46,673 nt of DNA from Alphaproteobacteria bacterium (GTDB taxonomy: Bacteria > Pseudomonadota > Alphaproteobacteria > Reyranellales > Reyranellaceae), in contig VGCZ01000040.1 in assembly GCA_016869975.1 (NCBI GenBank), positions 1 to 46,673 of the forward strand, read 5' to 3'. The translations under genes were made by a program, and so were the position numbers. The notes beneath the pieces were generated by a model. It was not told the origin of the DNA. It did not search any database and saw nothing but the letters and a program-made list of their open reading frames with translations. Of the stretch, positions 19,414 through 42,703 are shown one piece after another. Every line of letters begins with the position of its first letter. Within the stretch, counting starts at the first letter, position 1.

Positions 19414-20349
19414 ATGATCACCCGCCGTCAAGCGTTCGGCATCGCCGCTGGCGCTTTCGCGCTTGCCGCCACGCCAGCTCTCGCGCAAAGCTGGAAGGGC
19501 AGCCATCCCGAGTTGGTCTTCGCCGTCGTGCCGGCGGAGAACGCCTCGGGCGTCACCGAGCGGTTCCAACCCTTTATCGAGTATCTGTCGACGGAACTGG
19601 GCGTGAAGATCACGCTGCGCATCGCCAACGACTACGCCGCGGTGATCGAGGGCCAACGCGCCGGCAATATCCACGTCGCCGCCTATGGTCCGGCGTCCTA
19701 CGCGCGCGCGGTGATGACCGGCGTGAAGGTCGAGCCGTTCGCCACCACGCGCAACGCCGACGGTTCGCTGGGCTACTATTCAGTGACCTACGTGCTGGCC
19801 AAGAGCCCGTACCAGAAGATGGCCGACCTCAAGGGCAAGACGCTCGCCCTCGTCGATCCCAACTCGGCCTCGGGCAACCAGGCACCGCGCTTCTTCCTCA
19901 ACCGTGACGGCTTCGACGTCGACAGCTTCTTCGGCAGGAGCATCTACGCCGGCAGCCACGAGAACGCCGTTCTGGCGCTGGTGCAGGGCACAGTCGATGC
20001 CGCAGCGAACTGGTGGAACGCCGAAGACGATTCGAACCTTACGCGCATGCTCAGAAAGGGCATGCTGAAGAACGCCGATGGCAGCCCGATGAAGTACGAG
20101 GACTTTCGAATCGTCTACAAATCGGATCTGTTGCCCAACAGCCCCTACGCCTTCCTGGCCTCGCTGCCCGCCGACCTGAAGGCTGCCATCGTCAAGGCCT
20201 TCAACGAGGCGCCAACCAAGGCCAAGGCCGCGTTCGACAGGCTGTCGGATGGCAAGGACCGCGAGTTCGTGGCCGTGTCGCCGAAGGAGTACGATCCGAT
20301 CATTCAGATGATCAGGTTCGTCGACGAGATGCGGAAGAAGCGGTCGTAG
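19414..20349 (+). CDS. phnD: Phosphonate/phosphate-ester-binding periplasmic protein
   Basis: A 311-residue solute-binding protein of the PhnD (phosphate/phosphite/phosphonate) family. Its signal peptide contains a twin-arginine (TRRQAFG) before the hydrophobic core and ends 'PALA', so export by Tat is possible. The mature part has the family signatures 'LVFAVVPAENASGVTERFQPFIEYLS', 'AAYGPASYARA' and 'ALVDPNSASGNQAPRF', the ligand-gripping serine loop. 'VQGTVDAAANWWNAEDD' marks the second lobe. Whether it prefers phosphonate, phosphite or phosphate esters cannot be read from the sequence. Confidence 0.92.
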   Translation: MITRRQAFGIAAGAFALAATPALAQSWKGSHPELVFAVVPAENASGVTERFQPFIEYLSTELGVKITLRIANDYAAVIEGQRAGNIHVAAYGPASYARAVMTGVKVEPFATTRNADGSLGYYSVTYVLAKSPYQKMADLKGKTLALVDPNSASGNQAPRFFLNRDGFDVDSFFGRSIYAGSHENAVLALVQGTVDAAANWWNAEDDSNLTRMLRKGMLKNADGSPMKYEDFRIVYKSDLLPNSPYAFLASLPADLKAAIVKAFNEAPTKAKAAFDRLSDGKDREFVAVSPKEYDPIIQMIRFVDEMRKKRS

Positions 20350-20367
20350 TGCGCGTCCCGGACTATC

Positions 20368-21246
20368 GTGACAACCGCGGTCCAGCGCCTGCCCGAATCG
20401 CAAGAGCGGGCAATGATGCGCGCCTACGCGCAGGCGGTGTCGGCGCGGCGCGCGCGCGTGATGCTGGGTGCCGCGATCCTGCTCGTTCTGATCGCGATGT
20501 CGGCACGCACCAGCGAGGTCGACCTCGCCGTGTTCTTCGCGCGCATCGGCAGCGTCGGTGACTATTTCGACCGCCTGCTGCGGCTCGACAATGGCCAGCG
20601 TGTCTGGACCGACCTCGGTGAGTGGTTCTGGGGTCTAGGCCGTTGGTCGCGGTTGCTTTTCGACACGCTGCTGATCGCCTACCTCGGCACTTTCCTTGGC
20701 GCCATCGGTGGTTTCTGCCTGTGTTTCGTCGCCGCCGAGAACCTGACGAAGTCGCGCGGATTGCGTTTCGCCGCGCGGCGCTTCCTCGAGGCGTGCCGGA
20801 CGGTGCCGGAGATCGTCTTCGCCCTGATTTTCGTCGTCGCCTTCGGGTTGGGCGCCTTGCCCGGCGTGCTTGCGATCATGATCCACACCGTGGGCGCGAT
20901 GGGGAAGCTGTTCGCCGAGGTGGTTGAGAATATCGACATGAACCCGGTCGAAGGCGCCACCGCGGCGGGCGCCAGCTGGACCCAGACCGTGCGCTTCGCG
21001 GCGTTGCCGCAGGTGCTGCCGAACTTCGCCTCCTACGCGCTGTTGCGTTTCGAGATCAACGTGCGCGGCGCCGCCGTGATGGGCTTCGTCGGGGCCGGTG
21101 GAATCGGCCAGGACCTGGTCGAATCGATCCGCAAGTTCCACTACGCCGACGTGAGCGCGATCCTGTTGATCATCATCGCCACGGTCATGGTCATCGATCT
21201 GCTCACCGAGCGGCTGCGTCATCGACTGATCGGAGCGGCGCGATGA
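20368..21246 (+). CDS. phnE: Phosphonate ABC transporter permease 1
   Basis: A 292-residue inner-membrane permease. After a cytoplasmic N-terminus and one helix it has the BPD-type core with the coupling-loop region 'VEGATAAGASWTQTVRFAALPQVLP' and the family's 'GFVGAGGIGQDLVESIRKFHYADV'. The start is taken as GTG 20368; ATG 20413 or 20416 would remove 15-16 residues. It overlaps phnE2 by four bases (ATGA). Confidence 0.9.
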   Translation: MTTAVQRLPESQERAMMRAYAQAVSARRARVMLGAAILLVLIAMSARTSEVDLAVFFARIGSVGDYFDRLLRLDNGQRVWTDLGEWFWGLGRWSRLLFDTLLIAYLGTFLGAIGGFCLCFVAAENLTKSRGLRFAARRFLEACRTVPEIVFALIFVVAFGLGALPGVLAIMIHTVGAMGKLFAEVVENIDMNPVEGATAAGASWTQTVRFAALPQVLPNFASYALLRFEINVRGAAVMGFVGAGGIGQDLVESIRKFHYADVSAILLIIIATVMVIDLLTERLRHRLIGAAR

Positions 21247-28026: not shown

Positions 28027-28878
28027 ATGGCGGCTTATCTGCGACCGACGAGCATCGATGCGGCGTTGCGGGCGCTGGCGAGCCGGCCGCTCATCGTGCT
28101 GGCCGGCGGCACCGACTTCTATCCCGCGCGCGTCGGCTGTCCGCTCGACGAGGATGTCCTCGATATCACCGCCATCGCCGGTCTGCGCGGCGTCGCCGAC
28201 GCTGGCGATCATTGGCGCATCGGCGCCACGACCACCTGGGCCGATGTCGCGGAGAGCGACACCCCGCCGCTGTTCGACGGGCTCAAGCGCGCGGCGCGAG
28301 AGGTCGGTGGCGCGCAGATCCAGAACGCCGGCACCGTCGCCGGCAATCTGTGCAACGCCTCGCCCGCCGCAGACGGCGTGCCGCCGCTGCTGAGCCTCGA
28401 TGCGGCGGTCGAGCTCGCCAGCCAGGACAGGACGACCGTGGTGCCGCTCGCCGACTTCATCCTCGGCAACCGCCGCACGCGCCGTGCGCCCGGCGAACTC
28501 GTCACCGCCATCCGCGTGCCCAAGCCGCGCGCGCCGCGCGCCGCCGGCCACTTCGTCAAGCTCGGCGCACGGCGCTATCTGGTGATCTCCATCGTCATGG
28601 TCGCCGCCGCGATCGAGTGTGATCAGGCCGGTCGCGTGACGCGCGCCGGCGTCGCGGTCGGCGCCTGCTCGGAAGTCGCGCGCCGGCTGCCCGAGCTGGA
28701 AGCCGCGCTCCTCGGTCATCCGGCCGACACCACGCTGGGCGAGCGCGTGATGCCTCGACACCTCGCTGCGCTGGCGCCGATCGACGACGTGCGCGCCTCG
28801 GCCGAATACCGCGGCGACGCCGCGCTCACGGTGGTGCGACGTGCGCTCGCCGAGCTCGGCGCCACGGTGTCGTCGTGA
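28027..28878 (+). CDS. Molybdenum hydroxylase FAD-binding subunit (XDH/CoxM family)
   Basis: The medium, FAD-carrying subunit of a xanthine dehydrogenase-family hydroxylase, 283 residues, which passes electrons from the Fe-S clusters to an acceptor. 'LAGGTDFYP' (FAD pyrophosphate loop) and 'NAGTVAGNLCNASPAADGVP' are the family's two FAD motifs; a CO-dehydrogenase-type C-terminal domain follows. The frame can begin at 27985, but ATG 28027 (MAAYLRPTSIDAAL) matches family N-termini and leaves the operator and start point untranslated. GTGA overlap with the next gene shows translational coupling. Confidence 0.88.
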   Translation: MAAYLRPTSIDAALRALASRPLIVLAGGTDFYPARVGCPLDEDVLDITAIAGLRGVADAGDHWRIGATTTWADVAESDTPPLFDGLKRAAREVGGAQIQNAGTVAGNLCNASPAADGVPPLLSLDAAVELASQDRTTVVPLADFILGNRRTRRAPGELVTAIRVPKPRAPRAAGHFVKLGARRYLVISIVMVAAAIECDQAGRVTRAGVAVGACSEVARRLPELEAALLGHPADTTLGERVMPRHLAALAPIDDVRASAEYRGDAALTVVRRALAELGATVSS

Positions 28879-31622
28879 CGCCCGACGAACTCGCCATCGC
28901 GCCGGTGACGGTCGACGACGCGGTGCGCTGCGTGATCAATGGCCGCGCGGTGGCGTTGACATCGCCGCCGCTCACCCGGCTGGCGCACGCGCTGCGCGAC
29001 GAGCTCGGTCTGACCGGCACCAAGATCGGCTGCGATGCCGGCGATTGTGGCGCCTGCACCGTGCTGCTCGACGACCGACAGGTCTGCGCCTGCCTGACGC
29101 CGGTAGCTCAGGTCGCGGGCCGCGCCGTCATCACGGTCGAGGGCCTCGACGCCACCGCCGACGCGCTCAAGCGCGCCTTCCTGGCGCATGGCGCGGCGCA
29201 GTGCGGCATCTGCACGCCGGGCATGCTGATGTCGGCGACCGACCTGCTGCGGCGCGTGAGTCGACCCTCGCGCGCCGAGGTCGAAGACGCGTTGGGCGGC
29301 ACGCTTTGTCGCTGTACCGGCTATCAGAAGATCGTCGAGGCCGTGCTCGACGTGACGGCGTCGTCCGCGGCCTCGCCCGATGTCGGCCACGCGGTTGGCG
29401 CGCGCGTGCCGCGTGTCGACGGCGCCGCGCGCGTCGATGGCACGGAGATCTACGGCGCCGATGGCGTTCCCAGCGACGCGCTATGGCTGCGCGTCGTGCG
29501 CTCGCCGCACCGCAGCGCCAGCTTTGTCCTTGGCGATCTGACCGCCCTGCGGCGCAAGCTGGTGGCGGTGCTCACCGCCGCCGACGTGCCGTTCAACGGC
29601 TTCGGCATCTATCCCGACATCAAGGACCAGCCGGTCCTCGCCGATGGCGTCGTGCGCTATCGCGGCGAGGCGGTGCTGGCGCTTGTCGGCACACGCGATG
29701 CGGTGCTCGCGGTGCGTGATCAGGACCTGCCGATCGTCTGGACGACGCGCGAGCCGGTGATCGGCATCGATGCCGCGCGCGCGGCAGACGCGGCGCTGGT
29801 GCAGGCCGACAAGCCCGGCAACCTGCTGATCGAGGGCGGCGTACGGCGCGGCGATGTCGACGCCGCGTTCGCCGCGGCGGCGGCCGTAGCCGAGGGCGTC
29901 TTCGAGACGAAATTCGTCGAGCACGCCTACATCGAGCCGGAGGCGGGCTGGGCGCGTCGCGTCGGCGACCGCATCGAGGTGCATGTCACGACGCAGACCC
30001 CCTACATGGACCGCGACGAGGTCGCCAACGTGATGCGTCTGCCCCCCTCGTCGATACGCGTCGTGCCCACGGCCTGCGGCGGCGGCTTCGGCGGCAAGCT
30101 CGATCAGTCGGTGCAGCCGTTGATCGCTTTGGCGGCGTGGACGCTCGGCCGGCCGGTGGCCTGCGTCTACACGCGGCCGGAGAGCATGGCGGCCACCACC
30201 AAGCGCCATCCGGCGCGTGTCGAGGCGCGCTTCGCCTGCGACGCCGAGGGGTGCCTCACCGCCTGCGAATCGCGTGCCGATTTCGACACCGGCGCCTACG
30301 CCTCGTGGGGCCCGACCGTTGCCAATCGCGTGCCCGTGCATGCCACTGGCCCCTATCGCGTGGTCAACGCGCGCACCTGGGGAGCGGCGTGGTTCACCAA
30401 CGGGCCGCCGGCCGGCGCCTTCCGAGGCTTCGGCGTGCCGCAATCGGCGATCGCACACGAGGCGATGATCGATGCGCTGGCCGACAAGCTGGGGATCGAC
30501 CGGCTGGAGTTCCGCCACCGCAACGCGCTGCGGGTGGGCGACGCCACGGCGACCGGTCAGCGGCTGGAGCACTCGGCCGGGCTGGCGCAGTGCCTCGAAG
30601 CCCTGCGGCCACGCTGGACAGAGTGGAAGGCGCAAACCGCTGCCTTCAACCGCGCGGCAGGCGCGAGACGCCGAGGCGTCGGCATCGGCTGCATGTGGTA
30701 CGGCATCGGCAACACCTCGATGTCGAATCCCTCGACCATGCGCATCGGCATCGGGCGTGAGGGCGCCGTCACGCTCTACAGCGGCGCGCTCGACATCGGC
30801 CAGGGCAGCAACACCATCATGGCGCAGATCGCCGCCGACGCGCTGGGACTGCCGTTTGCGCGCATCCGCCTCGTCACCGGCGATACCGACCGCACGGCCG
30901 ACGCCGGCAAGACCTCGGCCTCGCGCCAGACCTTCGTATCAGGCAAGGCGGCGGAGTTGGCCGGCCGCGACCTGCGCGCGCGCATCCTGCGCATGGCCAA
31001 TGCCGGCACCGGGGCCGAATTGTCGATCAGTGGCGCGACGCTGTTCGTCCACGAAGGCGAGAGCACGCGCGCGATCGATCTGCGCGGCTTGAAGCCCGAC
31101 GCCAATGGCGACGTGATGCTGGGTGAAGGCAGCTTCGATCCGCCGACCTCGCCGCTCGACACCCATGGTCAGGGCGTGCCCTATGCCAGCTACGCCTTCG
31201 CCGCGCAGATCGCGCTGGTCGAGGTCGATATCGAGCTGGGCACGACCAAGGTGCTGCACATGGCCGCCGCGCACGATGTCGGCCGCGCCATCAACCCGCT
31301 GCAGGTCGAAGGCCAGATCGAGGGTGGCATCGCGCAAGGCCTCGGCCTGGCGCTGATGGAGGAATACATCCCCGGCCGCACCGAGAACCTGCACGACTAT
31401 CTGATCCCCACCGTCGGCGACATGCCGCGGATCGAGGTGATGCTGATCGAGGCTCTCGATCCGCTCGGCCCTTCGGGCGCGAAAGGTGTCGGTGAGCCCG
31501 GGCTCGTTCCGACAGCGCCGGCGATCCTCGGCGCGATCCACGACGCCACGGGCGTACGCATGCGCCAGGTACCCGTGCTGCCACACCGCCTGCGCGCCGC
31601 GCTGAAGGGAGGCGCGACGTGA
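28875..31622 (+). CDS. Molybdenum hydroxylase, fused 2Fe-2S and molybdopterin subunits
   Basis: A 915-residue fusion of what are usually two proteins. Residues 1-155 carry two [2Fe-2S] clusters: plant-type cysteines 53, 58, 61, 71 and helical-domain cysteines 110, 113, 145, 147 (CGIC...CRC). The molybdopterin-binding subunit starts at about 170 ('GARVPRVDGAARVDGTEIY'). 'GGGFGGKLDQ' and 'DIGQGSNTIMAQIAADAL' are cofactor loops, and 'GVGEPGLVP' near residue 874 has the catalytic glutamate. The family hydroxylates carbons next to ring nitrogens or aldehydes using water. With a 6-hydroxynicotinate reductase-like gene next, nicotinate or another pyridine is the likeliest substrate. Confidence 0.88.
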   Translation: MTPDELAIAPVTVDDAVRCVINGRAVALTSPPLTRLAHALRDELGLTGTKIGCDAGDCGACTVLLDDRQVCACLTPVAQVAGRAVITVEGLDATADALKRAFLAHGAAQCGICTPGMLMSATDLLRRVSRPSRAEVEDALGGTLCRCTGYQKIVEAVLDVTASSAASPDVGHAVGARVPRVDGAARVDGTEIYGADGVPSDALWLRVVRSPHRSASFVLGDLTALRRKLVAVLTAADVPFNGFGIYPDIKDQPVLADGVVRYRGEAVLALVGTRDAVLAVRDQDLPIVWTTREPVIGIDAARAADAALVQADKPGNLLIEGGVRRGDVDAAFAAAAAVAEGVFETKFVEHAYIEPEAGWARRVGDRIEVHVTTQTPYMDRDEVANVMRLPPSSIRVVPTACGGGFGGKLDQSVQPLIALAAWTLGRPVACVYTRPESMAATTKRHPARVEARFACDAEGCLTACESRADFDTGAYASWGPTVANRVPVHATGPYRVVNARTWGAAWFTNGPPAGAFRGFGVPQSAIAHEAMIDALADKLGIDRLEFRHRNALRVGDATATGQRLEHSAGLAQCLEALRPRWTEWKAQTAAFNRAAGARRRGVGIGCMWYGIGNTSMSNPSTMRIGIGREGAVTLYSGALDIGQGSNTIMAQIAADALGLPFARIRLVTGDTDRTADAGKTSASRQTFVSGKAAELAGRDLRARILRMANAGTGAELSISGATLFVHEGESTRAIDLRGLKPDANGDVMLGEGSFDPPTSPLDTHGQGVPYASYAFAAQIALVEVDIELGTTKVLHMAAAHDVGRAINPLQVEGQIEGGIAQGLGLALMEEYIPGRTENLHDYLIPTVGDMPRIEVMLIEALDPLGPSGAKGVGEPGLVPTAPAILGAIHDATGVRMRQVPVLPHRLRAALKGGAT

Positions 31623-35802: not shown

Positions 35803-36894
35803 CTAGCCCTCCGTCTCATCGCCCAGGCAGATGCCCAGCCCGCGTGCCGTGCGCACCAGCGGGCCGTTCGGGTCGACGACGTGCGGCACGCCCACGACCT
35901 CCTCCAGCGGCACGTCGATAACCTCGCGGTTCGACCAGGCCACCATGCGTCCCGTGCGGCCCTCGGCGATGAGGTCGACGGCATGCACGCCCAGCAACGA
36001 GCCCAGCAGGCGGTCCTCGGCCAGCGGCGTGCCGCCGCGCTGTACATGGCCCAGCACCGTCACGCGCGTCTCGGCGCCGGTGGTGGCGCCCAGCTTCGCC
36101 GCCAGCCAATGGCCGATCCCGCCCGCCTGCTTAAGCGCATCCGCGTCGGTGCCCGTGGGATGCGCCGCTTCGGCCACCACCACGAGGGCGAAGTCGCGAC
36201 CGACGACGCGCAGCTCGGTCACGTGACGCGACACCGCCTCGAGGGTCCAGGCGATCTCGGGGATCAGCACGACATCGGCGCCGCCGGCGATGCCCGCGGC
36301 GATGGCGATGTGACCGGCGTCGCGCCCCATCACCTCCAGGATCATCACGCGGTCATGGCTCGCCGCCGTGGGCTGCAGCCGATCGAGCGCCTCGGTCGCC
36401 GTCGCCACGGCGGTGGCGAAGCCCACGGCGCGCTCGGTGCGCGCCACGTCGTTGTCGATGGTCTTGGGGATGCCGACGAAGGGAATGTCGCCCTGCTGGG
36501 CGAGCCGGGCGAGGATCGCCAGGCTGCCGTCGCCGCCCACCCCGATCAACGCATCGAGGTCGAGCGCGTGGAAGCCCTCGACGATTTCGCGCGAACGGTC
36601 CTTCACCGAGCCGTCGGGCATCGGGAAGGCGAAAGGATCGCCCTTGTTCGTGGTGCCGAGGATCGTGCCGCCCAGGCGCAGCAGCGACGCATCGTCGGCG
36701 CCGGGCTTGAGCTCCTCCGCCTCCACCGGCCGCGCCAGAAGGCCATGCGTGCCCTTGCGGATGCCGATCACGTCCCAGCCATGGCCGTCGACCGCGCGGC
36801 GCACTACGGCGCGGATCACCGCGTTCAACCCGGCGCAGTCGCCGCCGCTGGTCAGCAGGCCGATGCGCCGCGTGCGCTTCTTCTTCGGCTTCAT
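35803..36894 (-). CDS. pfkA: 6-phosphofructokinase (mixed-substrate group III type)
   Basis: A 363-residue enzyme that phosphorylates fructose 6-phosphate, committing carbon to glycolysis. 'GLLTSGGDCAGLNAVIRAVV' (11-30) and 'GGDGS' (120-124) bind the phosphoryl donor; 'PKTIDND' (143-149) includes catalytic aspartate 147. Glycine in GGDG predicts ATP use, while the lysine in PKTIDND resembles PPi enzymes; this G/K combination marks group III PFKs, generally ATP-dependent. The start at 36894 has AGAGGAA ahead. It follows the halohydrin dehalogenase-type gene by 43 bases on the same strand. Confidence 0.93.
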   Translation of the reverse strand: MKPKKKRTRRIGLLTSGGDCAGLNAVIRAVVRRAVDGHGWDVIGIRKGTHGLLARPVEAEELKPGADDASLLRLGGTILGTTNKGDPFAFPMPDGSVKDRSREIVEGFHALDLDALIGVGGDGSLAILARLAQQGDIPFVGIPKTIDNDVARTERAVGFATAVATATEALDRLQPTAASHDRVMILEVMGRDAGHIAIAAGIAGGADVVLIPEIAWTLEAVSRHVTELRVVGRDFALVVVAEAAHPTGTDADALKQAGGIGHWLAAKLGATTGAETRVTVLGHVQRGGTPLAEDRLLGSLLGVHAVDLIAEGRTGRMVAWSNREVIDVPLEEVVGVPHVVDPNGPLVRTARGLGICLGDETEG

Positions 36895-36937: not shown

Positions 36938-37672
36938 TCACGCCCAGCCTCCGGCATGCGCCAATGTATGGCCGGTGACGAAGCCGGCGCCGTCGGAGCA
37001 CAGGAAGCAGACCGCCGAGGCCAGCTCCTCCGGCTTGCCCAGGCGGCCCATCGGGATCTGCGCCGTCATCTTCCTCATGGCCTCGGCGTTGGCCAGCAGC
37101 GCGGGCGGGAAGTAGTCGGGGTTCTCGACGTAGTTCGAGCCCACGGCGTTGACCGTGATGTTGTCGCGCCCGAGCTCCTTGGCAAGCGACTGCACGAGGC
37201 CCAACGTGCCGGCGCGCGCGGAGACGTACATCGAGTAATTGGCGATGCCGCGCAATGGCGCCGCCGACGAGACAAAGACAATGCGTCCCGCCTTCTGCCG
37301 GCGCATCACGGGCACCACCTTCTGCGCCAGCTCGAAGGGCTTGACCACCATGGTTTCGAGCGCGGCGCGGAAATCCTCCATGCGGGCTTCCGTCAGTGGC
37401 GCGCGCAACGCGGGATAGGCGTCGTTGCTGACCAGCGCGTCGATGCGCGAGGCCAGCTTCAGCGCCCCCTCAACGATCTTCGAAGGCTCTTGCGCCGCGA
37501 TCGCCCGCGCACCCGGGAACTCGGCGTCGAAGGCCTTGCGCTTGGCGGCGGCCGCGAAGCTCTCGTCATGCGCGATCACCTTCGCGCCCTCGGCGAGCGC
37601 CAATCGCGTCACGCCGTGGCCGGCGAAGCGGCGCACATGCGTGACCAGCAGCACTCGATCCTTCAGCAACAT
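36938..37672 (-). CDS. Putative halohydrin dehalogenase (SDR-derived)
   Basis: A 244-residue protein with the short-chain dehydrogenase fold but not its cofactor motif. In place of TGxxxGxG there is T11-H-V-R-R-F16-A-G18, the T-x4-F-x-G fingerprint of halohydrin dehalogenases, where halide rather than NAD(P)H is bound. The catalytic triad is S136, Y149, R153 (S-x12-Y-x3-R), with arginine replacing the dehydrogenase lysine. Further matches to HheC-type enzymes include 'HDESF', 'QEP', 'LVSND', 'YVSARAG' and 'GSNY'. Such enzymes convert vicinal haloalcohols to epoxides and halide, and open epoxides with azide, cyanide or nitrite. GGAGGTGAT precedes the start. Confidence 0.85.
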   Translation of the reverse strand: MLLKDRVLLVTHVRRFAGHGVTRLALAEGAKVIAHDESFAAAAKRKAFDAEFPGARAIAAQEPSKIVEGALKLASRIDALVSNDAYPALRAPLTEARMEDFRAALETMVVKPFELAQKVVPVMRRQKAGRIVFVSSAAPLRGIANYSMYVSARAGTLGLVQSLAKELGRDNITVNAVGSNYVENPDYFPPALLANAEAMRKMTAQIPMGRLGKPEELASAVCFLCSDGAGFVTGHTLAHAGGWA

Positions 37673-37772: not shown

Positions 37773-38567
37773 CTACCCCAGGCGCATCAAGCGCTCGCCG
37801 TTGCGGCGCAGCCAGGCGCGGCAGGCGGCGACATCGCCATCCGTGAGCTTGGTGGTCAGCGCCCAGAATTGCGGGCCGTGATTGGCGTGGACGAGATGCG
37901 CCACCTCATGGGCGACGACATAGTCGACCACCATTGTTGGCGCGAAGATCAGCCGCGTCGAGAAGCTCAGACCGCCGGCGCGCGCGCAACTGCCCCACTG
38001 CGTGGCGGTGTCGCGTACGGTGATACGCGTGACCTTGCGGTCGATGCGCGCCGCCTTGGCGTGCGCCAGTGTCGAGACACGCGCGCGCAATTCGCCGGCC
38101 AGCCAGTCGTGCAACCGGCGCGACAGGTGCTCGGCGCGTCCCGCGACATGCAGCGCGCCATCCTCGATCCACACGGTGCCGCGCCGGTCCGGCCGATGAC
38201 GCACGACATGCGGCGTGTCGAATAGCGGGATGACCGCGCCATCGGCGAAAGGCACCGGCGGCGATTGCCGCAGCGTGCGGCCGTGGATCCACGCCGCCTG
38301 CGCGCGCGCGAAGCCCAACGCCGTCTCGCGCGCCATACGCGGCGGTGCCACCAGCCGCACCCGGCCGCTGCGCTGATCGACACGCAAGGACACGCGGCGC
38401 GCCTTGGCGCTGCGCTCGAACATCACGACCAGCGGCACGCCGGCATGATCGACGGTGATCGCCTCTGGCGGCGGCAAGAGCGGTTTCGGCTTGGCCGCGA
38501 CGGGCGTGCGCCGCTTCGGCCGGGCCGTGCCCGGCAGCAGATCGCGCAACGAGTCGAAGAGAGACAT
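37773..38567 (-). CDS. YgjP/DUF45-type metallopeptidase
   Basis: A 264-residue protein of the YgjP-like (M48-related, formerly DUF45) family. A beta-rich N-terminal half (about 35-150) precedes 'ITVRDTATQWGSCARAGGLSFSTRL' and the zinc motif 'HEVAHLVHANHGPQFW' (H220, E221, H224), with the third ligand further on. Predicted zinc protease, cytosolic, with unknown targets. ATG 38567 matches the family; the upstream extension is rejected. It is divergent from the class V aminotransferase and 100 bases upstream of the dehalogenase-like gene. Confidence 0.88.
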   Translation of the reverse strand: MSLFDSLRDLLPGTARPKRRTPVAAKPKPLLPPPEAITVDHAGVPLVVMFERSAKARRVSLRVDQRSGRVRLVAPPRMARETALGFARAQAAWIHGRTLRQSPPVPFADGAVIPLFDTPHVVRHRPDRRGTVWIEDGALHVAGRAEHLSRRLHDWLAGELRARVSTLAHAKAARIDRKVTRITVRDTATQWGSCARAGGLSFSTRLIFAPTMVVDYVVAHEVAHLVHANHGPQFWALTTKLTDGDVAACRAWLRRNGERLMRLG

Positions 38568-41504: not shown

Positions 41505-41909
41505 ATGGCCAAGACCAAGGGCAGCAAGAAGAAAGCTGCCAAGTCCAAGAAGGCGCGCGCTCGAGAACTGGCTGAGGGTGGCGAGCCCCCTGTGCACATG
41601 CTCGATCGGCTCTACGCGACCATCGAAAGCCGTCGCGGCGCCGATCCGTCGACCTCCTACACCGCCAAGCTGATGGCCCGCGGGCGCGACAAGCTCGCCC
41701 AGAAGCTGGGCGAGGAAGCCACCGAGGCGGTCATCGAGGCGATCAAGGGCGACAAGGAGAAGCTGATCGCCGAGAGCGCCGATCTGCTCTACCACCTGCT
41801 GGCGCTGTGGGCGACGTTGCGTATCGAACCGGCCGACGTATGGGACGAGCTGGCGCGGCGCGAGGGCGTTTCCGGTCTCGCCGAAAAGGCGGCGCGCGAC
41901 GGCGCCTGA
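41505..41909 (+). CDS. hisE: Phosphoribosyl-ATP pyrophosphatase HisE, with basic N-terminal extension
   Basis: The second step of histidine synthesis, hydrolysing PR-ATP to PR-AMP. The conserved domain (about residues 32-132) shows 'LDRLYATIESRRGADPSTSYTAKL' and the metal-binding 'KLGEEATEAVIEAIKGD...ESADLLYHLLALW', with the MazG-like glutamate/aspartate set. Residues 1-28 form a lysine/arginine-rich extension (KTKGSKKKAAKSKKARAR) not usual for HisE. M32 (41598) is an alternative start without it. The ribosome site before 41505 is weak. Confidence 0.9.
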   Translation: MAKTKGSKKKAAKSKKARARELAEGGEPPVHMLDRLYATIESRRGADPSTSYTAKLMARGRDKLAQKLGEEATEAVIEAIKGDKEKLIAESADLLYHLLALWATLRIEPADVWDELARREGVSGLAEKAARDGA

Positions 41910-41947
41910 TCTGGCGTCTCGGGCCGGTTGGGCGTAAGCCAGCGGCG

Positions 41948-42703
41948 ATGAAGCACCTGCCCGTCGCCATTCTCTTCGACCTCGACGACACGATCATCCG
42001 CGCCTACGCCAAGCCGGTCGAGGCCTGGGGGCGCCTGCTGTCGCGTCATCGCGACGCGCTGGAGGGTTCCGTGCCGGGCGCCGACCTCGACGCCGTCAGG
42101 GACGCGATCCTGGCTTCAGCCAACGCCTTCTGGCGCGACCCGGCCGAGGCGGCGCGCTGGCGCCTCGACATCGGTGGCGCGCGGCGGCTGGTCGTGCGCG
42201 ACGGCTTCGCGCGGCTGGGCCATCGCGACGACGATCTGGCGGCGCGTATCGCCGATGCCTTCACCGAGATGCGCCATGCCGAGTACACGCTCTATCCCGA
42301 CGCGCGCGACACGCTCTCGACGCTACGCCGCGCCGGGGTGAGGCTGGCGCTGGTGACCAACGGCCGCGGCGAGACCCAGCGCGCCAAGATCGAGCGCTTC
42401 GATCTCGCGGGGTTTTTCGACCACATCCAGATCGAAGGCGAGTTCGGCCGCGGCAAGCCCGAGCCTGACGTCTACCACCATGCGTTGGGCAAGCTCGGCT
42501 GCCCGGCGCGCGAGGCCTGGATGGTCGGCGACAATCTCGAATGGGAAGTCGTCACGCCCCAGCGCCTGGGCCTGCGCGGTATCTGGTACGATCCCGACGG
42601 CGATGGCCTGCCCGCCGGCAGCGGCGCGCGGCCCGATCGCATCATCGCCCGCCTGGCCGACCTGCTTATCGACGAGGCGGCGGCGAGAGCGAGCGCAACG
42701 TAG
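41948..42703 (+). CDS. HAD family hydrolase
   Basis: A 251-residue haloacid dehalogenase-superfamily enzyme, probably a phosphatase. Motif I 'FDLDDTII' (nucleophile Asp11, acid Asp13), motif II 'LVTNGRGETQ', motif III lysine and motif IV 'GRGKPEPDVYHHAL' and 'MVGDNLEWEV' are all present; the helical cap lies between motifs I and II. The frame extends upstream into hisE, but ATG 41948 is the family-like start. Substrate unknown. Located 38 bases after hisE. Confidence 0.87.
   Translation: MKHLPVAILFDLDDTIIRAYAKPVEAWGRLLSRHRDALEGSVPGADLDAVRDAILASANAFWRDPAEAARWRLDIGGARRLVVRDGFARLGHRDDDLAARIADAFTEMRHAEYTLYPDARDTLSTLRRAGVRLALVTNGRGETQRAKIERFDLAGFFDHIQIEGEFGRGKPEPDVYHHALGKLGCPAREAWMVGDNLEWEVVTPQRLGLRGIWYDPDGDGLPAGSGARPDRIIARLADLLIDEAAARASAT

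Follow-up and report, generated by a model that had tools for sequence, protein, structure and literature searches.

The window, by which we mean the whole 46,673-nucleotide stretch of DNA that was analysed, carries on its minus strand an open reading frame at 36938..37672 that runs from ATG to TGA and encodes a protein of 244 amino acids. The reading frame, its motifs, a search of PDB sequences and a phylogenetic tree mark it as a halohydrin dehalogenase (HHDH) gene. Directly downstream on the same strand is pfkA (35803..36894), for ATP-dependent 6-phosphofructokinase, which scores above the cut-off of NF010674. The spacing between the two is 43 bp if pfkA starts at 36894, and there is a 20-bp overlap if the start of the longest open reading frame, 36957, is taken. 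Upstream of the HHDH gene and 100 bp away, also on the minus strand, is a gene for a YgjP-like metallopeptidase (37773..38567, with a provisional start; the longest reading frame extends to 38630). The minus strand presents murJ, pfkA, HHDH and YgjP-like metallopeptidase genes, followed on the plus strand by those for a class V aminotransferase, hisA and a phosphoribosyl-ATP pyrophosphohydrolase.

Three further regions of the window were inspected. Parts of a phosphonate ABC transporter occupy 19414-21246, where PhnD and PhnE exceed their NCBIfam cut-offs. A large molybdopterin-dependent oxidoreductase with a fused Fe-S domain, xanthine-dehydrogenase-like, lies at 28875-31622; it reaches the cut-off of none of the 20 NCBIfam models among the matches listed. 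The HAD hydrolase at 41807-42703 matched six NCBIfam models, each with a score short of the cut-off, and is no evidence for dehalogenation.

The published HHDH fingerprint, as given in the available text of a 2016 review (PMC4989007) and of PMC11976700, combines T-x4-F/Y-x-G with S-x12-Y-x3-R. The window protein has both elements, at the residues named by the initial annotation, which had given no strand for the gene: motif 1 is T11-x4-F16-x-G18 and motif 2, with the Ser-Tyr-Arg triad, is S136-x12-Y149-x3-R153. The classical SDR cofactor motif T-G-x3-G/A-x-G is absent, with T-x4-F-x-G there instead, and the SDR signature Y-x3-K is replaced by Y149-x3-R153. Four strings that had been cited as HheC-like, HDESF, LVSND, SARAG and G-NY, do occur in both proteins, the last as G-S-N-Y here and GPNY in HheC. 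The earlier view that such matches go beyond chance is upheld by an alignment with 22 SDR sequences, 21 from the window's own genome and one from a MAG. All 22 have lysine at the position equivalent to Arg153, and none has an aromatic residue at that of Phe16, where there are 20 glycines, one alanine and one asparagine.

General models present the protein as an SDR, and the competing identity is an NAD(P)-dependent SDR oxidoreductase, FabG-like for example, carrying incidental substitutions. The best Pfam model is adh_short_C2 at 135 bits, so the prediction that automatic annotation would mistake the enzyme for an SDR was correct. At E 0.01 or better 211 NCBIfam models match, and with each of the best 25 of these the protein scores far short of the cut-off, which argues against the SDR assignment, as do the missing glycine-rich cofactor motif, the change of lysine to arginine and the replacement of the P-G loop by S-N-Y. 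The search of PDB sequences gives first 6a41, described as a 'dehalogenase' (E 7.3e-114, residues 1-244), with 72% identity (175 of 244 residues). Matches two to ten (E 3e-46 to 1.6e-38) are wild-type or engineered chains of either HheA or HheC, and the first ordinary SDR is a FabG at E 1.2e-30. The candidate status proposed for the gene is thereby supported at the sequence level.

A maximum-likelihood tree was calculated for 53 sequences: the window protein, seven PDB references, 23 related loci and the 22 SDRs. The 31 HHDH sequences separate from the 22 SDRs in a single split with support 100/99, and the HHDH clade includes the window protein together with HheA, HheB, HheC, HheD2 and 6a41 (types A-D; HheE, HheF and HheG sequences were left out). 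Phylogeny had been set beforehand as the refuting test, and it places the protein not inside the NAD(P)-dependent SDRs but outside all 22 of them, with full support. It groups with three of the related loci (L009, L010 and L052), and 6a41 belongs to the Reyranella-type clade next to this group. Among the types represented, A to D, the clade of the window protein is separate from both the HheA and HheC branch and the HheB and HheD2 branch.

An AlphaFold2 model of the monomer has pLDDT 87.6 and pTM 0.88. Structural comparison gives 6a41 as the best match (Z 36.0), with HheC, HheA and FabG equal near Z 31 (FabG 4nbu, Z 31.1). FabG structures thus superpose well on the model, a point in favour of an SDR, and since they tie with HheC and HheA the fold cannot separate HHDH from SDR, whereas sequence can. 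On motifs and tree we reject the SDR oxidoreductase identity as very improbable. Because the motifs, the best PDB match and the tree agree, the window protein is assigned by sequence to the HHDH family with a probability of about 0.93. With a predicted structure of the SDR fold, it would be expected to work without cofactor and to interconvert haloalcohols and epoxides. It is an additional, ordinary member of a known family with a close relative of solved structure. The impression of a singular new find is not borne out, given that 6a41, 72% identical, was released in 2019 and matches occur in 65 of 75 genomes of the bacterial family, Reyranellaceae. Within the library searched, no paper joins Reyranella to halohydrin dehalogenase, and none joins PDB entry 6a41 or HheE to it; the available text of PMC11536340 cites a 2019 Catal. 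Lett. article about an alphaproteobacterial HHDH.

The gene had also been called degraded, and we reject this. The reading frame is intact and the NG86 dN/dS ratio is 0.04-0.19 in six pairs; those that include the window gene, at 0.07-0.19, are with L009 (0.073), L010 (0.166) and L052 (0.186). The YN00 method, applied to two pairs, gives 0.022 for the window gene and L009 and 0.033 for L029 and L059. In every pair for which a ratio was calculated, the HHDH gene shows purifying selection.

Scanning genome contigs with patterns derived from the query gave 77 related loci, 67 of which carry both motifs exactly; the patterns were taken from the query, so this set is biased to look-alikes. The ten that are not exact are variants with serine for threonine (L063-L065) or tryptophan for phenylalanine (L068) in motif 1, another serine variant with an unread base (L075), a gene whose start was mis-called (L083), two genes truncated where their contigs end (L073, L074) and a pair of ordinary SDRs (L084, L085). 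According to record titles, relatives above 65% identity are mostly from Reyranella, Reyranellaceae, Enhydrobacter, Vineibacter and unplaced Alphaproteobacteria or Rhodospirillales. The 65 matching Reyranellaceae genomes were obtained at E 1e-40, with a few matches cut by contig ends. Among genomes of good quality the count is 48 of 51, and all five genera are represented. Each genome has one match, except for one with two (G061).

A sample of the class Alphaproteobacteria comprised 289 genomes, 36 of which have a match at E 1e-30. Four were dropped: two matches are ordinary SDRs (G181, G275), one covers the C-terminal part only (G166) and one has no motif 2 (G109). Motif 2 is present in all 32 retained carriers and motif 1 in 31, allowing serine for threonine and tryptophan for the phenylalanine or tyrosine; in the remaining carrier (G278, locus L136) isoleucine replaces the threonine. 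The description of the family as rare is only partly true, with 32 motif-checked carriers among 289 alphaproteobacterial genomes.

Some of the motif variants merit description. Serine in place of the motif-1 threonine (S-x4-F-x-G) is found in every Vineibacter-type locus examined and in one other genome (L063-L065, L088, L127); the available text of PMC11976700 notes two natural variants in which this threonine differs. Tryptophan at the aromatic position (T-x4-W-x-G) occurs in HHDH homologs of 50-53% identity (L068, L089, L090 and L091, with L113 and L114 as second entries for the genes L089 and L090). A search with the published F/Y motif would miss these homologs. 'F12W' does not appear in the available text of PMC11976700. 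Two genomes of one genus have paired, adjacent HHDH-like genes (L134-L137; G170 contig C6 and G278 contig C1), and in the second copies (L135, L137) the triad arginine is changed to glutamine and the motif-1 aromatic is lost, so that by sequence they look like an inactive or altered HHDH partner. Two more HHDH-like sequences of 33-34% identity (L142 from G109, L143 from G221 contig C99) have motif 1 with tyrosine and an N-Y/F-type loop, and there is no tyrosine at the catalytic tyrosine position in the alignment.

Does the neighbourhood inform on function? The adjacency to pfkA could mean that the HHDH is coupled to glycolysis through an operon. Comparing gene tables by eye, we see same-strand adjacency in the window's genus, in all four genomes, and in a second genus (g5), in all three genomes that have both genes. 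In L009, a relative with 96% identity, the HHDH stop overlaps the pfkA ATG by 4 bp (ATGA), from which a shared transcript is likely; the gap varies in L063, L064, L065 and L088. Adjacency is confined to these two of the five genera. By the same comparison it occurs in none of 51 genomes with both genes in two further genera (g3 and g4), where HHDH and pfkA are on different contigs or, in four single-contig cases, over 500 kb apart. No pfkA is seen in the flanks of L011-L062 (up to 5 kb), and a phosphofructokinase gene is present in none of 20 deeper alphaproteobacterial neighbourhoods. Outside the two genera we therefore reject adjacency to pfkA as a general indicator of function, and we regard the coupling to glycolysis as improbable.

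The two genes also differ in their affinities. The pfkA of the window's genus shares 81-84% identity with that of g5 and 65-70% with those of g3 and g4; the full-length HHDHs share 66-67% with g5 and 69-75% with g3 and g4. These opposed identities may reflect replacement or movement of pfkA in Reyranella.

In place of pfkA, Reyranella-type loci have as neighbours genes for what we take to be a CoaBC-type flavoprotein and a UbiB-like protein (ABC1 kinase). In the 57 other loci of L009-L066, several with short flanks, relatives of the flavoprotein and the ABC1 kinase are found in 40 and 44 respectively, and a binding-protein-dependent ABC transporter permease is nearby in 28. When genes around the 20 deeper loci were clustered, the sharing proved lineage-specific; groups present in at least three of these loci have five annotated members, namely SIR2, glyoxalase, alpha-amylase, purE-type carboxylase and COQ9. 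The annotated neighbours of HHDH genes are housekeeping genes that differ between lineages; among the remaining neighbours of the deeper loci a dehalogenation gene is possible.

The initial annotation found no dehalogenation genes around the HHDH gene and left its role open. On the first point, the contig has no EHN or limonene-type epoxide hydrolase, and two EHN epoxide hydrolase genes lie on other contigs of the genome; a limonene-type epoxide hydrolase (PF07858) is absent from the genome. EHN is present in 73 of the 75 Reyranellaceae genomes and in 60 of the 289 in the class sample, where it co-occurs with HHDH. It is found in 25 of the 36 HHDH-matching genomes compared with 35 of 253 others (Fisher p 9e-12), and in 23 of the 32 motif-checked carriers compared with 37 of 257 others (p 3e-11), leaving nine carriers without it.

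HHDH is absent from all class-sample genomes below 2 Mb. Genome sizes were compiled with the help of a search for ribosomal S7, which gave 249 of 289; sizes of 271 of the 289 entered the tests, and the 18 left aside have neither an HHDH nor an EHN match. In a size-stratified permutation of the retained set over the 271 genomes, the observed value of 23 compares with a mean of 9.8 and a maximum of 19, and none of 5000 permutations reaches 23. Every size class above 2 Mb shows the same direction (p 0.014, 0.0003, 0.040 and, above 5 Mb, 0.12), the last, at 6 of 9 versus 7 of 21, not being significant by itself. With Reyranellaceae removed, EHN is in 19 of 28 HHDH carriers and 31 of 145 other genomes of at least 2 Mb. 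Taking one genome per family, for 98 families at or above 2 Mb, gives a median p of 7.5e-5 (range 7e-7 to 0.0063, 500 draws), with the caveat that these tests control kinship to family level and relatedness above the family is uncontrolled.

Cytochrome P450 is also associated with HHDH (29 of 36 genomes versus 96 of 253), which makes confounding by lifestyle a real concern. The association of HHDH with EHN is a correlation, and P450, EHN and HHDH may all be markers of an epoxide-rich lifestyle. Within P450-bearing genomes EHN is still found in 22 of 27 HHDH carriers against 35 of 98 others. For P450-free genomes, using the list of 36, EHN is in 1 of 7 HHDH carriers and 2 of 157 others, numbers too small for significance (p 0.12). 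The genes themselves are unlinked. Where HHDH and EHN share a contig, in five Reyranellaceae genomes, they are at least 409 kb apart as judged by eye, and the nearest pair noticed in the class sample (G126) is approximately 22 kb apart.

HHDHs are sought-after biocatalysts. What is new here are hints on the natural role, from retention across the family, the housekeeping setting and the co-occurrence with EHN. Retention by most relatives hints at an everyday role, and the physiological role is most likely a constitutive chromosomal function. Co-occurrence supplies a concrete hypothesis for that role, and on this basis we propose, tentatively and with the odds somewhat against us, that the HHDH handles biogenic haloalcohols or epoxides together with an unlinked EHN, which converts epoxide to diol. 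The wider statement is doubtful: that in Reyranellaceae and several other alphaproteobacterial lineages HHDH is a long-kept core enzyme acting with an unlinked EHN on biogenic haloalcohols or epoxides, not in xenobiotic degradation, and that the pfkA-linked copy in the window is one arrangement of it.

A different possibility is that an enzyme with the HHDH fold naturally adds or releases another small anion, nitrite or cyanide for instance, at an epoxide or beta-substituted alcohol, with dehalogenation a side activity. HHDHs do accept azide, cyanide and nitrite, and the available text of PMC4989007 allows for other physiological functions, conceivable because an epoxide hydrolase shares the operon of only two known HHDH genes. 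Xenobiotic catabolism is likewise not what one would read from a gene kept by 65 of the 75 Reyranellaceae genomes, or from its annotated housekeeping neighbours. Against this, no positive evidence points to an alternative substrate and the set of catalytic residues is intact, and we consider a natural preference for another anion unlikely. Since the HHDH is widely kept in a housekeeping setting, its natural role becomes testable, and a family that keeps the gene in 65 of 75 genomes is a place to do so by deletion.

Returning to the HHDH assignment, the alignment equates Thr7, Phe12, Gly14, Ser132, Tyr145, Arg149, Asn176 and Tyr177 of HheC with Thr11, Phe16, Gly18, Ser136, Tyr149, Arg153, Asn180 and Tyr181 of the window protein. 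By homology to HheC and HheA, Ser136 would hold the substrate oxygen and Arg153 would lower the pKa of Tyr149, which would accept the hydroxyl proton from a vicinal haloalcohol. The substrate oxygen would then displace halide to form the epoxide in a reversible reaction, the halide departing to a pocket that has Phe16 and the Ser179-Asn180-Tyr181 loop as its lining, with this loop in the place of the NAD(P) site. We infer the reaction, halide binding and the tetrameric state for the window protein. Residues of the halide pocket correspond to those of HheC by alignment, with the caveat that the AlphaFold2 model is ligand-free and unsure in those loops, its least sure regions, where mean pLDDT is 72 (131-140), 64 (141-150) and 68 (181-190).

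The substrate pocket, using residues that in part we presume to form it in HheC, shows six substitutions from HheC to the window protein: Pro84 to Ala88, Phe86 to Arg90, Thr134 to Ala138, Trp139 to Ile143, Pro175 to Ser179 and Trp192 to Leu192. Five of the six are common to the window protein and 6a41, which has lysine at the Phe86 position. With a pocket that differs from that of HheC, the substrate range may therefore not be that of HheC, while the chemistry should match.

Among HHDHs of known structure, HheB (4zd6) and HheD2 (7b73) share the motifs and membership of the HHDH clade with the window protein; they differ in forming a separate subclade at 31-32% identity (for HheB over residues 37-244), and loci of that subclade (L076, L077, L080, L081) are without about 22 residues near residues 45-66 of the window protein. 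HheA and HheA2 (4z9f, 1zmo) have the motifs, the catalytic triad and the same length of 244 residues, at 36% identity, with a G-P-N-F loop in HheA where the window protein has G-S-N-Y, and tryptophan in place of Leu192. HheC (1pwx), which we take to originate from Agrobacterium radiobacter AD1, is also 36% identical and has the motifs, the triad and the HDESF, LVSND and SARAG strings; it differs in its GPNY loop and in extending to 254 residues, whereas the window protein terminates at Trp243-Ala244. The closest is 6a41 (titled 'Dehalogenation enzyme', released 2019-06-19), which has both motifs and the same S-N-Y nucleophile loop, differs at 28% of residues and sits inside the Reyranella-type clade.
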